This document shows positions 286-30,015 of a stretch of DNA of 34,725 nucleotides, in pieces (position 1 is the stretch's first letter; each line of letters opens with the position of its first letter). The stretch comes from Chloracidobacterium sp. Its GTDB lineage: Bacteria; Acidobacteriota; Blastocatellia; Pyrinomonadales; Pyrinomonadaceae. Under the pieces are notes generated by a model. It was not told the DNA's origin, did not search any database, and saw only the letters and a list, made by a program, of their open reading frames with translations. A program made the translations under genes and the position numbers. The stretch spans positions 1 through 34,725 of the forward strand of contig JANYIL010000062.1 in the NCBI GenBank assembly GCA_025362075.1. Direction: 5' to 3'.

Positions 286-3183
286 ATGCGTTCTCTACTA
301 GTCATTTTACTATTTGTTATCGGCGTTGCGGCGCAAACTCCCCCGATCGAAACCGGCGTTTCGCACACGTTGGCCCAATGGCGAGCTGCTCGATATTCGG
401 ATATTCGCTATAAGTTCAACCTGACGCTCGAAAAAATGTCGCCCGTGCTGAAAGGCACGATGGAGATCAGGGTTAACTTAAACTCGCTGGTGGAATCCGA
501 GCCTAGCCCCAAATCTATCATTCTCGACTGGCGAAAGATCACCGGCCATGAAAAAGATTCAACAATCTCGAACGTGACCGTCAATGGCACACCGATGGAC
601 GTTCGCGGCGGTGGGGCCTTTGAGATCACCAGCACTAAACCGTACATTATCGACGACCGAGACCATCTCATCATCGGCGGCGCCCAGTCGGGCGAAAACG
701 TTGTCAAACTGGATTTCACCTCGCCGATCCTGACCAGCGGCTCGGCGATCACGCGGTACATCGATAAGGAAGACGGCGCGGAATATGTCTATTCGCTCTT
801 TGTCCCGTCCGACGCCAGCACGGCGTTCCCGGTCTTTGACCAGCCGGATCTGAAGGCGAGGTTCACGTTAACGACTCACGTGCCCGCCGACTGGGTGGTA
901 ATAAGCAATGATTTGAGCGTTAGTGCTACGGACGGACGTACTCTATCCACTAACTTTTACGAAACCAAACCTATCAGCACCTACGTCTTTGCCTTTACGG
1001 CGGGGCCGTGGCAGCGGATACCACCGCTTAGAGTCGGTTTCGTCGGGGGCGGCCTGCCTCCGTATCCGGATATCGCGTATCATGTTCGCGCATCTCAAGC
1101 CAAGAAGTTCCAGCCCCACGCTGCCGAGGTCTTTCGGCTGACGAGCGAGGGCATCAAATTCCTCGAAACCTACTTCGACTACAAATTTCCCTGGCCCAAA
1201 TACGATCTTGTCCTGATCCCCGAATTCCCCTTTGGCGGGATGGAGCATGCGGGAGCTACGTTTCTGCGAGAGTCATCCGTTATTTTCCCGACCGAGCCGA
1301 CCAAAAACGACCAGATCTCGCGGGCGAACCTTATCTTTCACGAGACGGCGCATCAGTGGTTTGGGGACACTGTGACGATGAAATGGTTTGACGACCTGTG
1401 GCTAAAAGAGGGGTTTGCCGAGTTTATGGCATACAAGACGCTCGAGAAAGTTATGCCCGAGGCCAACGCCTGGAAAATCTTTTACGAACGCAACAAACAG
1501 GCCGCCTACCAGACCGATTCAACCAAGGGCACGACCCCCATCTATCAGGAGATCGCCAACCTCTCGGCCGCCAAGAGCGCCTACGGCAACATCGTCTATC
1601 GAAAGGCGCCTTCGTTTCTCCGCCAAGCCGAGTTTTATCTAGGCGAAGACAAATTCCAAACCGCCGTCCGCGTGTTCCTGAAGAAACACGAGTACGCAAA
1701 TGCGGGCTGGGAAGATCTGGTGAAGGAGTTTGAGACGGCAAGTGGAAGGGATCTGAAAGAGTGGGCGAAACAGTGGGTAACCCAGAGAGGCCTACCTATT
1801 TATAGGGTTCAAAGAACGCAGGACGACCCAAATATCTATGAAGTCACAATAGTCCCGAGCGACGCTCTTCGATTAGGAGGAGTCTGGCAAATGAAAGTGC
1901 AGACGCTAGCCGTAACATCGGATAAAAACGGAACGACTAATCCTATAGCGTTGTTCACCGTGTCGAATGGTCGAATGGACCCATATCGAATGTCCGAAAC
2001 CATCTCTGACGGAACCCAGAGCCTCTATTATTATTTTCCAAACTACGGCGACTACGGCTACGGCATCTTTCTGCTCGACGCCAAAAGCCGCGATTATGTC
2101 CTGAAAAATATCCAGAACGAAAAGGACCCGTTTTTACGGACAATGATGTGGGGCAGCCTCTGGGACAGCGTCCGCGAAGCCGAGCTTGATCCGAAGGATT
2201 ATGTCGAGCTGGTGGTAAAAATGCTGGGCTCCGACGTTCGGAGTTCCGACTTTAGTCGGCCCTCCACCGCAAAGATGCCAGCTAAAGCTGGAACTCCAAA
2301 CACGGAGACCGACGAAGGCACGATCCAGACACTGCTTAGCCGAGTCTCGACGACGATGAATTATTACGTCTCGGACACGCAGCGGTCCGCACTTGCCCTT
2401 AAGGTCGAGTCGCTCCTAATCGACAGGATACAAAATGCCCCTACCGCCGGACAGCGGATCACTTTTTACCGTGCATTCCTGGGTCTCGCATCGACCGAGC
2501 GTGCCCGGGGCGTCCTCAAGCAGATACTCAGGAATGGCTCGCCCAGGTCAGAACCACCTGCGGTAGCGGGTGGTTTAACTCGGCGGTCACCCAGCTCCGA
2601 CAAAAAAGACTCAAGTAAACCGACAAGTAACAATGACCATCTTCAACCACCCGCTACCGCAGGTGGTTCTGACTTCCACCTCAAAACCAAAGACCGTTTC
2701 GACATTGTCACGCGTCTCATCATCCTCGGCGACGCGGACGCTCCTAAACTGCTCGTCGATCTCGAAAAAACCGAGACGGGCGACGATGCCAAACGCTATG
2801 CTTACGCCGCCAAGGCCGGCGCGGCGACTGCCGAGAACAAGGCCAAATACTGGAACGATTTCCTGACCAACAAAGACATTTCCGAGAGTTGGATCGAGGC
2901 CGCCATGGTGCCGTTTAATTCGATCAGGCAAACGCAGCTAACTCAGCAATTTCTGGAGCGCGCCCTCGCCGAGCTGCCAAACCTCAAACGCTCGCGCAAG
3001 ATATTTTTTGTCAATGGCTGGCTCGGTGCCTTCATCGGCGGCCAACGCAGTGAGGCGGCCCTGGCTGTCGTCAACAAGTTCCTCGCCGATAATCCAAATC
3101 TCGACAACGACCTGCGGCTAAAAATACTCGAAAACGTCGATACCATCGAACGGGCGGTCAAGATCAGGAATAAGTACAAATAG
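286..3183 (+). CDS. M1 family metallopeptidase (aminopeptidase N-like), secreted
   Basis: 965 aa; signal peptide; GGMEHAG and HETAHQWFGDTVT...KEGFAEFMAY zinc site. Confidence 0.93.
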   Translation: MRSLLVILLFVIGVAAQTPPIETGVSHTLAQWRAARYSDIRYKFNLTLEKMSPVLKGTMEIRVNLNSLVESEPSPKSIILDWRKITGHEKDSTISNVTVNGTPMDVRGGGAFEITSTKPYIIDDRDHLIIGGAQSGENVVKLDFTSPILTSGSAITRYIDKEDGAEYVYSLFVPSDASTAFPVFDQPDLKARFTLTTHVPADWVVISNDLSVSATDGRTLSTNFYETKPISTYVFAFTAGPWQRIPPLRVGFVGGGLPPYPDIAYHVRASQAKKFQPHAAEVFRLTSEGIKFLETYFDYKFPWPKYDLVLIPEFPFGGMEHAGATFLRESSVIFPTEPTKNDQISRANLIFHETAHQWFGDTVTMKWFDDLWLKEGFAEFMAYKTLEKVMPEANAWKIFYERNKQAAYQTDSTKGTTPIYQEIANLSAAKSAYGNIVYRKAPSFLRQAEFYLGEDKFQTAVRVFLKKHEYANAGWEDLVKEFETASGRDLKEWAKQWVTQRGLPIYRVQRTQDDPNIYEVTIVPSDALRLGGVWQMKVQTLAVTSDKNGTTNPIALFTVSNGRMDPYRMSETISDGTQSLYYYFPNYGDYGYGIFLLDAKSRDYVLKNIQNEKDPFLRTMMWGSLWDSVREAELDPKDYVELVVKMLGSDVRSSDFSRPSTAKMPAKAGTPNTETDEGTIQTLLSRVSTTMNYYVSDTQRSALALKVESLLIDRIQNAPTAGQRITFYRAFLGLASTERARGVLKQILRNGSPRSEPPAVAGGLTRRSPSSDKKDSSKPTSNNDHLQPPATAGGSDFHLKTKDRFDIVTRLIILGDADAPKLLVDLEKTETGDDAKRYAYAAKAGAATAENKAKYWNDFLTNKDISESWIEAAMVPFNSIRQTQLTQQFLERALAELPNLKRSRKIFFVNGWLGAFIGGQRSEAALAVVNKFLADNPNLDNDLRLKILENVDTIERAVKIRNKYK
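2240..2297. repeat. Inverted-repeat element inserted in-frame within the M1 peptidase gene
   Basis: ggagttccgactttagtcggc (2240-2260) vs gccagctaaagctggaactcc (2277-2297); each arm also has its own small stem. Confidence 0.75.
2547..2673. repeat. Perfect 29-bp inverted repeat with 69-nt centre, in-frame within the M1 peptidase gene
   Basis: gtcagaaccacctgcggtagcgggtggtt (2547-2575) and exact reverse complement aaccacccgctaccgcaggtggttctgac (2645-2673). Confidence 0.95.
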
Positions 3184-4954: not shown

Positions 4955-6193
4955 ATGGAAGATAACAAATACCGCAAATTTTACGTCGACTGGTGGAATA
5001 TCCGCAACAGCACGATCTACTCGGTGATCGCTGTTGTCATAATTTTACTGGCCCTCGGCGGAGGTGCGTGGTGGGCGTCGCGGCACAATTGGTTTATCGA
5101 CACGCCCGACCAGAATGTACCGAAAGATGCGGCCCGGATCGTTTCATTCGAGGGTGATGTGCGGATCATCCGTGCCGCGACACGCGAGACGATAGTCGTC
5201 AAAAGCGAGACTTTCGTCACCGCCGGGGACACGATCCAGACGATGGCAGACGGGCGGGCGACCGTGCAAAATATCGATGGCTCGGTCTTTTACGTCAAGC
5301 CCAACAGCGCCATGGTGGTCAAGGTTTCGACCTCGCTCTTTGGCGGAAAGGACGTCCGGCTGACGGTGAATGACGGCCAGGTAAACGTCAAGACGAGCGA
5401 TCAGCCGCAAGACTCGAAAAACATCGTCGAGGTAGCCGATTCGGAAAACCGCGTGCTGTCGAATACGGACGCGAGCTTTAATGCCGATTCGCAGACCAAC
5501 GGCGGCGAGATTCGCATCAGTCGCGGCGGGGTGGAAACGACGATCGGCGGCGAAAAGACGACGATCAGTGAAAACGAGTTTGCCTCGGTCAACAACGGCA
5601 AGCTGTCGGCACGCGAAAAATTGCTCGCACCGCCAAGGCCCGTCGCCCCGGCAAATTCGGCCCAGATCCCCGATTCCGGCGGCGGCGTGAGCGTGGCATT
5701 TAGCTGGCAGGCACCCGAGGAAAACCCGATCGCGAGCTATTATCTGCAGATCTCAAAATCGCCGATCTTTGCGGCAGATTCGATACTCGTCGACAAAAGC
5801 TCGATGACGACCCGCGAATTCCGTCTCGCCGGCATCTCGCCCGGCACGTATTACTGGCGGGTCAAGGCAACATCGGTCTCAGGCCAAACGACAAACTGGA
5901 ACGACGCGTGGAAGTTCCTGGTGGTGCGGCCGAGCGATAACGTTTCGATCGACGCGACCAACGTCCAGGTCGAACGCGTCGGTGGAAATGTGTATATCCT
6001 AACGGGCCGCACCTTGCCCGGAATGAGCGTCAGGACGGCGGGCCGCGACACGTTTGCCGGGCCCGACGGGTCGTTCCGCTTGCAAATATCGTCGCCGTCG
6101 GTCGAGACCGCCGTCGAGATCAGCGACGATCGTGGCAACCGCCGGGGCTTTATCGTCTCTCTCAGAAATGGCAGCATTTTGCGGCGTTATTAG
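4955..6193 (+). CDS. FecR domain-containing membrane-anchored protein
   Basis: N-terminal TM helix then FecR-like domain (GDTIQTMADGRATVQNIDGSVFYVKPNSAM). Confidence 0.8.
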   Translation: MEDNKYRKFYVDWWNIRNSTIYSVIAVVIILLALGGGAWWASRHNWFIDTPDQNVPKDAARIVSFEGDVRIIRAATRETIVVKSETFVTAGDTIQTMADGRATVQNIDGSVFYVKPNSAMVVKVSTSLFGGKDVRLTVNDGQVNVKTSDQPQDSKNIVEVADSENRVLSNTDASFNADSQTNGGEIRISRGGVETTIGGEKTTISENEFASVNNGKLSAREKLLAPPRPVAPANSAQIPDSGGGVSVAFSWQAPEENPIASYYLQISKSPIFAADSILVDKSSMTTREFRLAGISPGTYYWRVKATSVSGQTTNWNDAWKFLVVRPSDNVSIDATNVQVERVGGNVYILTGRTLPGMSVRTAGRDTFAGPDGSFRLQISSPSVETAVEISDDRGNRRGFIVSLRNGSILRRY

Positions 6194-17660: not shown

Positions 17661-17749
17661 TCCGAACAAACTGAAAATTAAAAACTGGCAACTGAAAATG
17701 AGGTGATTTCGTTTTCAGTTTTAACTTTTTAGTTTTCAGTTTCTTCGGA
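17661..17749. repeat. Intergenic inverted repeat, 38-nt arms
   Basis: tccgaacaaactgaaaattaaaaactggcaactgaaaa vs RC of 17712-17749 tccgaagaaactgaaaactaaaaagttaaaactgaaaa. Confidence 0.9.
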
Positions 17750-25752: not shown

Positions 25753-25892
25753 GACTGGAGCGGCAAGCATCCTTGCTTGCCACGCCGGTTCCTCCGACGT
25801 TACGGCACTCCCGCGCATCTCACATTGAATTTATCCGATCTCAACGGCGGTCTTTCGACCGCTGGCAAGCCGGGATGCTTGCCGCTCCAGTC
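25753..25892. repeat. Inverted-repeat element, 29-nt arms each with internal stem
   Basis: gactggagcggcaagcatccttgcttgcc (25753-25781) vs ggcaagccgggatgcttgccgctccagtc (25864-25892). Confidence 0.92.
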
Positions 25893-27483
25893 ATATGATC
25901 TCACCCGCAGCGTGCAGTCCATGATAAAACGCTTCTTCAAAAAGCGCGATGCCGCTCAGGTCGGTGTGGGCAAAATGGATGTTGCGGTACGGCTTAACCG
26001 CCTTTTCGCGAATGCCACTCCATATAAAATTTGGCCTTGGGCTAATCATCGCATGGCCCCAACGCATCACGTCGAGCCGCTCCGTCAATTCGTAAATATC
26101 CGGATGCGCCCGAGCAAGATCGGTCAGGCAGACATCGGCAAGCTGTTTCCATTCGTAATTAAAGAGCGTCGTTCGGCCATTCGGTTCGGCACACATCGGA
26201 TAGTAATAGGTCAGGATCGTCGGGCCGTAATCGATGCCTTTTTGATGGGTCGCGGTCACATAACCGAGCGATGGGCTTTCGTACAAAACGTTGTCCCAGG
26301 ATAGCGGAAAATCCTTTGGGAACCTCGGTTTCGGCCGGTCTTTCAGAAAAAGATTGGCTACGAACCACGCATTGTGCTGAAATTCGCCGGCGGCAAACGG
26401 CGGGTTTTCGCGAAAACCACGTATGACCCACGGTGCCGTAAATACAGGCGATGAGTAAATGATCTTTTCGCAATGAATGCCTCGAATCTCGTTACCGTCG
26501 AGGCAAACAACATCGACGCCCTTTTCGTTTGGCTCGACCGAGACGACCATCTGCGATCTGCGAACGTTGTCTTTGACCTTGTCGTAAAAATGATTTACAA
26601 ACTGGCCGTTGCCCTCCGGGCAAGTTATGAACGGCTGCGATTCCGCGCCGCTTTTGCGGACACGCGAGCAAAAATAGAACAGCCCGACCCACGCCGACGC
26701 CTGATCGACCTTGAGCCCGTAATCGTCGCGGGTCGCGTAATCGCAATACCAGAGCAGCCGCTCGGACGTGAAACCATTCTGCCGCAGCCATTCGGCAAAT
26801 GTGAGCTTATCGAGAGCTGTAACGGTCGCGTCGTTCGAGCACATCTCAAGCGGCACGACAAACGCCCGCCGCCCGCGAGCATCACGCCAGTTGACCCACT
26901 TATCGATATGTTTCTGAAAGTCTGCGAATTGCCGCTTATCATCCTCGCTCGCTCCGGCGTTGAGATAAAGCCCTTCATACCAACGGCCTTTGTAAAATAC
27001 GCGCTCCTCGGGTTCACGGCATAGAAACTGCTCTTTGACCACAACTTCGCCTAAGGCATCGCGCCCTTCGATCAGCGACATCTCGTCCAGAAACGAGATC
27101 AGGTCGTTGTTTTCCTTAAACGGTACCGGCAGATAATGCGCCCCCCACGGATAGCCAACCGGCTCACCACGATCGCTGCGGGCCGTGCCCCCGATCTCCT
27201 TTTCAAGTTCGAGCAGGACAAAATCGTTGAAATTATCTTTCTTGAACTTCCACGCCGCCGTCAGCCCCGCAACACCGCCACCGACGATCACGACCCTTTT
27301 CGTTTCCCATTTGTCGGCAGGAACTTCAAATTTGCGGTTTTCTCTAAGAACGTGCCCCAGACTTGCGGATTGCCCTATAATCTCGCCTTCGGGAAACAGG
27401 CGCGATTCTTCCGACTGGCACGCAGCAAACGCAAACGGTGCTCCGAGGAATAGGGTCAGCAGTTCTCGTCGTGTGAGGGTCAT
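25891..27483 (-). CDS. FAD-dependent amine oxidoreductase with Tat/lipoprotein-type N-terminus (likely start 27483)
   Basis: MTLTRRELLTLFLGAPFAFAAC; RVVIVGGGVAGLTAAWKF dinucleotide-binding motif; GGTARS. Confidence 0.85.
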   Translation of the reverse strand: MTLTRRELLTLFLGAPFAFAACQSEESRLFPEGEIIGQSASLGHVLRENRKFEVPADKWETKRVVIVGGGVAGLTAAWKFKKDNFNDFVLLELEKEIGGTARSDRGEPVGYPWGAHYLPVPFKENNDLISFLDEMSLIEGRDALGEVVVKEQFLCREPEERVFYKGRWYEGLYLNAGASEDDKRQFADFQKHIDKWVNWRDARGRRAFVVPLEMCSNDATVTALDKLTFAEWLRQNGFTSERLLWYCDYATRDDYGLKVDQASAWVGLFYFCSRVRKSGAESQPFITCPEGNGQFVNHFYDKVKDNVRRSQMVVSVEPNEKGVDVVCLDGNEIRGIHCEKIIYSSPVFTAPWVIRGFRENPPFAAGEFQHNAWFVANLFLKDRPKPRFPKDFPLSWDNVLYESPSLGYVTATHQKGIDYGPTILTYYYPMCAEPNGRTTLFNYEWKQLADVCLTDLARAHPDIYELTERLDVMRWGHAMISPRPNFIWSGIREKAVKPYRNIHFAHTDLSGIALFEEAFYHGLHAAGEII

Positions 27484-27910
27484 ACGGAATAAGTGATAGG
27501 TACAAAGTGAAAGGTAATAAGTTATTGTTCGGTTTCCCGGAGTGTTTTGATGGCTGATATCAGCATTTTCTGAAGCTCTTCGCAATCATCGAGTAGTGAT
27601 CTGGTCTGTGTCTCGCTGATAAACTCGCCATCTCTCAAAAGACGGAGTAGTTTGTTTTAAAGGCTTCTTTATTTGCTATCGAATATTTTTGACGGAGTTC
27701 GATTCGATCGTCACCCTGTTTGCCTTCCTCGATGAACAAACCAATGTTGATACCGCTGTCGAGGATCTTTTTCGAAATTACAAACTCCTTCTTTTCCGAA
27801 TGGAGAACTCGCTCAATCTAACGATCCGCAATGCAAAAGCATAAGACTTATCTCTCAATGGATCTGCCATAACTTTTAACCTTTCACCTATTACTTATAA
27901 CTTATTCCGG
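27484..27910. mobile_element. Composite unit: 40-bp imperfect inverted repeats flanking an S23 four-helix-bundle pseudogene
   Basis: 27484-27523 matches reverse complement of 27871-27910 at 32 of 40 positions without gaps. Confidence 0.7.
27522..27870 (-). pseudogene. Four-helix bundle (S23/IVS-type) protein, two frameshifts
   Basis: MADPLRDKSYAFALRIVRLSE / VLHSEKKEFVISKKILDSGINIGLFIEEGKQGDDRIELRQKYSIANKEAFKTNYSVF / LRLLRDGEFISETQTRSLLDDCEELQKMLISAIKTLRETEQ* in successive frames. Confidence 0.75.
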
Positions 27911-29439: not shown

Positions 29440-29515
29440 AAAAACGGAAAATGGATAACGGATAACGGAAAATGAAAAAACAGCAGTCATTTTCCGCTTT
29501 CCATTTTCCGTTTTT
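29440..29515. repeat. Inverted-repeat hairpin aaaaacggaaaatgga(taacgga)taacggaaaatga ... tcattttccgctttccattttccgttttt
   Basis: Arms 29440-29475 and 29487-29515. Confidence 0.88.
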
Positions 29516-29934: not shown

Positions 29935-29951
29935 AAGTCTTAATAGTTTAT

Positions 29952-30015
29952 TGAGTTTGTAGAGTTCGTTGAGAAAAACATTTTCTCAACGAACTCTACA
30001 AACTCTACAAACTCA
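29952..30015. repeat. Inverted-repeat hairpin tgagtttgtagagttcgttgagaaaa ... ttttctcaacgaactctacaaactctacaaactca
   Basis: Right arm has one extra 9-nt tandem unit. Confidence 0.9.

Follow-up and report, generated by a model that had tools for sequence, protein, structure and literature searches.

The window, that is, the whole stretch of 34,725 nucleotides of Chloracidobacterium sp. DNA analysed here, contains a remnant of an S23-type open reading frame, enclosed by two inverted arms and wedged between two protein-coding genes. The unit and its neighbours are arranged as follows:

25894-27483, minus strand: downstream flanking gene, a flavin-containing amine oxidoreductase, with its start codon directly at the unit edge
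27484-27525: one of the two arms (the 3' one when read in the S23 sense), a tandem 7-nt repeat overlapped by the S23 stop codon
27522-27870, minus strand: S23 (PF05635 / TIGR02436) pseudogene in three frames, with two frameshifts
27869-27910: the other arm (the 5' one when read in the S23 sense), a tandem 7-nt repeat (GGAATAAGTTATAAGTAATAGGTGAAAGGTTAAAAGTTAT) adjoining the S23 start codon
27916-29490, minus strand: upstream flanking gene, a spermine/spermidine synthase domain protein, with its stop 5 nt from the S23 unit

As both flanking genes are on the minus strand, the S23 unit lies in operon sense. An initial annotation of this DNA had placed the arms at 27484-27523 and 27871-27910 and counted 32 matches in 40 positions, which we reproduce; a repeat finder delimited them as 27485-27525 and 27869-27909 (41 nt, 83%), and 30 matches in 40 were never reached in 200 shuffled versions of the 628-nt region. 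The edges of the reading frame also fall where that annotation had put them, with the start codon (27870-27868, minus strand) abutting one arm and the stop codon (27524-27522) overlapping the other. It had missed the 7-nt period of the tandem repeats in the arms (GTGATAG GTACAAA GTGAAAG GTAATAA GTTATTG). The two frameshifts it had reported are present: the peptides MADPLRDKSYAFALRIV, EFVISKKILDSGINIGL..KEAFKTNY and LLRLLRDGEF..RETEQ, the last of which ends at the stop codon, are in three different frames. The middle peptide matches PF05635 with an E-value of 3.4e-5, under the curated cut-off. In the predicted fold of the transcript, the arms are paired and the stem is closed (z −4.8). An Rfam scan of the window found tRNA only and no rRNA. 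Two long near-perfect inverted repeats elsewhere in the window (2547-2673 and 25753-25892), with loops of 63 and 80 nt, have no tandem-repeat period and are not of the S23 type.

The flanks of six units of the host genome (G000) were located in 24 congeners. At the window site, an S23-type unit of about 415-440 nt is present in G000, G005, G008 and G017, and the site is empty, with 0-10 nt between the genes, in G001, G004, G010, G011 and G024. Intact copies and empty sites, which the initial annotation had proposed to look for, are both found here: besides the five empty congeners, there is an intact S23 gene in G017 (L086), encoding 113 amino acids that match PF05635 with an E-value of 1e-16, between arms like those of the window copy. 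The 442-nt unit of G008 is of the same kind as the S23 units. The copy in G005 is the nearest S23 relative of that in G017 (60%), yet its arms are quite different on both sides. In G002, the site contains a 110-nt unit consisting of the two arms and both ends of the S23 reading frame, the middle of S23 being deleted, and in G015 a GxxExxY gene is located between arms. Identical arms shared by all relatives irrespective of S23, named in the initial annotation as an argument against a mobile unit, are not what is seen: the site in congeners is empty, differently armed or, in G002, internally deleted.

Other sites vary in a similar way. At the site of L003, at least five species have a unit and three have none, and G008 has a solo hairpin, i.e., one free of S23; that of L006 contains S23 in G000 and solo hairpins elsewhere, made of the same heptamer in G016 and of three different ones in G018, G008 and G001. 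The empty sites in congeners are intergenic gaps of 0-25 nt, mostly without any remnant. No target-site duplication is visible when filled and empty sites are compared, a comparison limited by the divergence of the flanks. Units found at one site in several species may go back to one old insertion, and the pattern of presence and absence could in part reflect loss.

Inverted arms are not peculiar to this locus. They flank 178 of the 215 distinct S23 (PF05635) genes with enough flanking sequence (83%), versus 3 of 770 other open reading frames of at least 100 amino acids from the same loci (0.4%); genes were scored as armed at an inverted-arm score of at least 15.5, a threshold chosen by us and used for the controls as well, and the 99% quantile of the score for flanks paired between different S23 loci was 17.5. 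The S23 genes were taken from the host genus and class (81 of 90 armed), from 80 GTDB contigs of many phyla (66 of 86) and from viral contigs (31 of 39), the sample from other phyla being the best 80 loci for one peptide motif of one S23 clade. The figure for the genus and class answers a further objection raised in the initial annotation, namely that the S23 genes of relatives might lack arms. No rRNA gene turned up in a scan of 73 other-phylum S23 loci, and a search of open-licence full texts found no report linking S23 genes of protein operons to tandem-repeat arms.

In the host genome (an assembly of 3.9 Mb in 299 contigs, 88% complete), all 15 PF05635 matches have inverted arms. Most of these arm pairs have a repeat unit of their own (AGTTCAA, GAATGCG, GATTGCG, AATTACG, GGTGAAT, AAAGGAT, TGCACAA and so on) and a few have units of 8, 9 or 10 nt; a unit is common to L002 and L009, and another to L003 and L004. 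The repeat sequence is degenerate and varies between loci, and a terminal sequence conserved across families was sought and not found. The dominant period, by contrast, is restricted: among 185 cases it is 7 nt in 137, 8 nt in 28 and 9 nt in 15. On the sense strand, the 5' arm is the purine-richer one in 153 cases and the purine-poorer one in 28. The element has a median length of 479 nt. A fixed number of repeats per arm was considered and rejected: the arms have 4.8, 5.1 and 3.7 units at periods of 7, 8 and 9 nt, establishing neither a constant length nor a constant number. The units of Flavobacteriia-type genomes (L226, L240, L246, L247, L253, L265 and L268) tend towards 8-nt rather than 7-nt repeats.

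The repeat unit is mostly shared between S23 genes above 80% identity and almost never below 60%. The two arms change in concert. Among orthologous pairs with 62-80% identity, the arms within a unit are more alike than the orthologous arms in 44 of 56 cases, versus 4 of 27 above 80% identity; the pairs are not independent, and the counts do not distinguish copying between arms from selection for pairing. Mapped onto the S23 tree, the period changes 23 times, versus 46 times after shuffling (minimum 42), a clustering partly due to the inheritance of shared arms by close relatives.

The units occupy tight gaps, beginning a median of 2 nt after the upstream reading frame and ending 11 nt before the downstream one; between co-directional genes, S23 has the same sense in 107 cases and the opposite sense in 21. 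We know of no function for S23 proteins, and a role as a defence-system protein was discarded, there being no PADLOC match. The median dN/dS of about 0.07 (15 orthologous pairs) indicates purifying selection. The solved structures of S23 relatives, 2rld and 2gsc, contain five chains each, and an S23-type protein of Xanthomonas has been reported to be a homopentamer (PMC4990558).

Hairpins with S23-type arms and no S23 gene are dispersed in these genomes, three of them within the window, which also contains one resembling the arms of GxxExxY (PF13366) units:

177-258: solo hairpin with a 9-nt period (CCACGAA/ACACGAA), similar to GxxExxY-unit arms
17661-17749: S23-free hairpin of the family TCCGAACAAACTGAAAA, whose termini also delimit units of S23 size in G005 and G008
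29440-29515: solo hairpin with a 7-nt period (ACGGAAA/ACGGATA); other hairpin families or none at this site in relatives
29945-30013: solo hairpin with a 9-nt period (TTGAGTTCG), the unit family of the S23 units L002 and L009 of the same genome

The termini TCCGAACAAACTGAAAA are found on units of 431 and 442 nt and also, at different sites distributed over four genomes, on seven solo hairpins (72-117 nt), with no match for a control with the reversed pattern; the 9-nt family TTGAGTTCR has 22 matches in G000, versus 2 for its control. Such common arm sequences support the earlier suggestion that the cargo-free hairpins derive from S23 units. Close to the S23 units of the GTDB and viral sets, at distances of a few kb at most, 92 recurrences of arm k-mers were counted, as opposed to 26 of reversed k-mers. 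The site at 29440-29515 appears to be a hot spot, occupied in relatives (L075-L087 and L391-L420) by hairpins of the AAAGGAT, ACAGGAT, GAGTTTGGA and GACGCGGAGAC families or by none. On the viral contig L302, a phage-like gene (5400-6050) is located between repeats (AGTCTGT) of the same unit as those of an S23 unit a few kb away; the segment 5471-5945, one of the control hits and considered as another possible cargo, is a phage-like region flanked by solo hairpins and has no Pfam match.

Signs of movement come from old copies. L003 and L004, in one genome, have unrelated flanks, 75% protein identity and shared arms, and their homology starts and stops at the outer ends of the arms; together with the solo copies of TCCGAACA, this pair represents the same unit with defined ends at unrelated sites, as expected of a transposon. 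Of 30 non-orthologous pairs whose proteins are at least 70% identical, 12 have arms in common; among all pairs at 40-50%, the proportion is about 1%. Near-identical S23 units at unrelated sites were not found, and recent transposition was discarded for the close pairs examined, which turned out to be orthologous. Since these close pairs have homologous flanks, movement would be slow and has to be read from old differences. There is no transposase within the unit, the arms leaving room for one small reading frame, S23, and no catalytic gene was found in S23 units.

A second family is carried in the same manner. GxxExxY (PF13366), a protein of the PD-(D/E)XK nuclease superfamily, is encoded by multi-copy genes flanked by inverted tandem-repeat arms (L421-L450 and L452-L476), namely 26 of 30 genes in relatives and 15 of 21 further genes in a phylum sample; in viral contigs, there is one locus only. 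One copy in a relative (L080) is at the window site. As in S23 units, a single small reading frame lies between inverted tandem-repeat arms, in many copies and with an insertion site in common; the protein and the style of the arms differ, the arm units (TTAACCACAGAGAACACAGAG, CACAGAG, CACGGAT, CACGAA, ACAGGAT) mostly having a period of 8-10 nt. That GxxExxY genes are armed like S23 genes makes a broader class of elements conceivable.

The nearest known counterpart is the intervening sequence (IVS) of 23S rRNA. That of Coxiella contains an S23p reading frame, 28-bp terminal inverted repeats and tandem heptamers (GACAGAT), and is cleaved by RNase III (PMC4990558). The units described here resemble such sequences of Coxiella and Leptospira in having an S23 reading frame, a length of about 430 nt, terminal inverted repeats, heptamers beside the reading frame and carriage in a host transcript; they differ in being located in protein operons, in many copies per genome, with locus-specific arms and dispersed solo hairpins. 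Intact copies match PF05635 / TIGR02436 (the window fragment is below the cut-off) and the window unit has terminal inverted repeats that form a stem; neither it nor any of the 73 other-phylum loci lies inside an rRNA gene, for which reason we do not class it as an rRNA IVS. On present evidence, it appears to function like one. The S23 protein, known chiefly from insertions in rRNA genes, owes its name to rRNA, a rare location for its gene.

REPINs and REP elements with their RAYT (Y1) genes share with S23 units the short palindromes, the solo and gene-flanking copies and the lack of visible target duplications; the S23 units, however, have no transposase, their arms are locus-specific tandem repeats of 7-9 nt, and in these genomes REPs of a separate, ordinary kind accompany the Y1 genes. 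MITEs derived from internally deleted autonomous transposons are a further parallel, in that the solo hairpins share termini with gene-carrying units and the one in G002 keeps both ends of the reading frame, although a known transposase, target duplications and a terminus conserved across families are absent from the S23 solo hairpins. The heptanucleotide STRRs of cyanobacteria and the TAACTGA repeats of Beggiatoaceae are likewise intergenic 7-nt tandem repeats; those of S23 units differ by forming inverted arms around a reading frame. The TAACTGA repeats were described as direct repeats, in a paper that does not mention S23 (PMC4679880).

The initial annotation had proposed an IVS-like mobile unit, a stem plus a four-helix protein, in a protein operon. 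The arms at the S23 genes of relatives and the empty, filled and deleted alleles at the site support this, and we infer that the unit moves. The reading we favour, and consider likely, is that S23 units are minimal mobile units, intron-like and widespread as a class, that reside in protein operons, and that the window feature is, with the same probability, a decaying copy of one. Each unit, of about 420-510 bp, would comprise one S23 reading frame, coding for a pentamer-forming four-helix bundle, between two inverted arms, and would enter a short gap between operon genes, mostly oriented like the host transcript, S23 probably being expressed by read-through. In RNA, the arms would close a long stem around the reading frame; by analogy with the 23S rRNA IVS, this stem is probably a substrate of RNase III, whose cleavage would make the insert tolerable to the host genes. 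S23, which is under selection, probably binds its own arms, conceivably one repeat per subunit, which is a guess. Reading frame and arms are inherited together, and in old paralogues they are found together at different sites. Solo hairpins, spread in the manner of MITEs, would be what internal deletion leaves behind; the class would include the rRNA IVS as its branch residing in rRNA, and some enzyme would presumably be the mover.

Two alternatives concern the unit itself. S23 might be an ordinary host gene, its arms terminators or regulatory hairpins, and its presence and absence gene loss instead of insertion. Its conservation (dN/dS 0.07) and the vertical stability of some copies across a genus (Mesorhizobium) would suit this; against it stand the empty sites, which are gaps of 0-25 nt mostly without remnant, the arms, found at 83% of S23 genes and at 0.4% of other reading frames, and the 7-9-nt period of arms that recur elsewhere without S23, making this explanation quite improbable. 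We are equally sceptical of hairpins that came first, by replication slippage and hairpin-templated copying, S23 having settled in them later. Solo hairpins do outnumber S23 units in both families examined, and where G000 has S23 at the L006 site, G016 has a solo hairpin of the very same heptamer; the solo at the window site in G002, however, retains the first and last S23 codons, so S23 was lost there, and the arm period tracks the S23 tree.

The other two concern the mover. Y1 (RAYT/IS200-like) transposases could move the units in trans, as with REPINs, which we regard as unlikely. Y1_Tnp is present in 38 of 40 genomes, both genomes without it are also without S23, and the hairpin shape and missing target duplication would fit; G029, however, has 10 Y1 genes and no S23, and the Y1 loci fetched have, where armed, REP-type palindromes and not tandem-repeat arms. 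Movement by Y1/RAYT of the same palindromes as in S23 units was discarded on this ground. Y1 (RAYT-like) genes (L324-L343; 5-21 per congener genome), mostly flanked by ordinary REP palindromes, form a separate REPIN-type system. S23 might also, as a relative of Avd, recruit a reverse transcriptase as in diversity-generating retroelements, and Avd and PF05635 have indeed been reported to be homologous (PMC10053308). RVT_1, however, was not found in G000 (88% complete), G007, G013, G015, G017, G019 or further genomes, in which S23 genes number 10-17. A reverse transcriptase (PF00078) acting in trans was rejected in view of this absence from many S23-rich genomes; it is an unlikely mover of S23 units, and retro-mobility as a whole is highly improbable.

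Preferring the minimal mobile unit of protein operons to these alternatives, we would give even chances to a more far-reaching proposal: that S23 units are a categorically new class of mobile element, set by architecture and not by terminal sequence, in which one small reading frame (S23 or, independently, GxxExxY) lies between inverted tandem-repeat arms, the sequence of the repeat unit being replaced over time as period and arm pairing are kept. It would be an intron-like parasite of operons across bacterial phyla; the rRNA IVS would form its rRNA-resident branch, and many of the unexplained intergenic heptamer hairpins would be solo derivatives of it.

The data indicate that the usual home of S23 genes, across many bacterial phyla, is a gap between operon genes within a repeat-armed hairpin, and S23 units look like a widespread, unrecognised class of minimal mobile element. 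A common origin would follow for rRNA IVSs, for the "four helix bundle protein" genes present in multiple copies and for some, at least, of the intergenic heptamer hairpins. What moves an IVS, an old question, could be tested in ordinary bacteria; that the arms change in concert at a fixed period is a genetic puzzle in its own right. Genes for 23S_rRNA_IVP have been listed as CRISPR-associated, a Pleurocapsa copy being located between cmr3 and cmr2 after a gap of 85 nt (PMC3936711); the position of this copy fits a unit in a gap of a cas operon rather than a Cas function, which may explain the listing.
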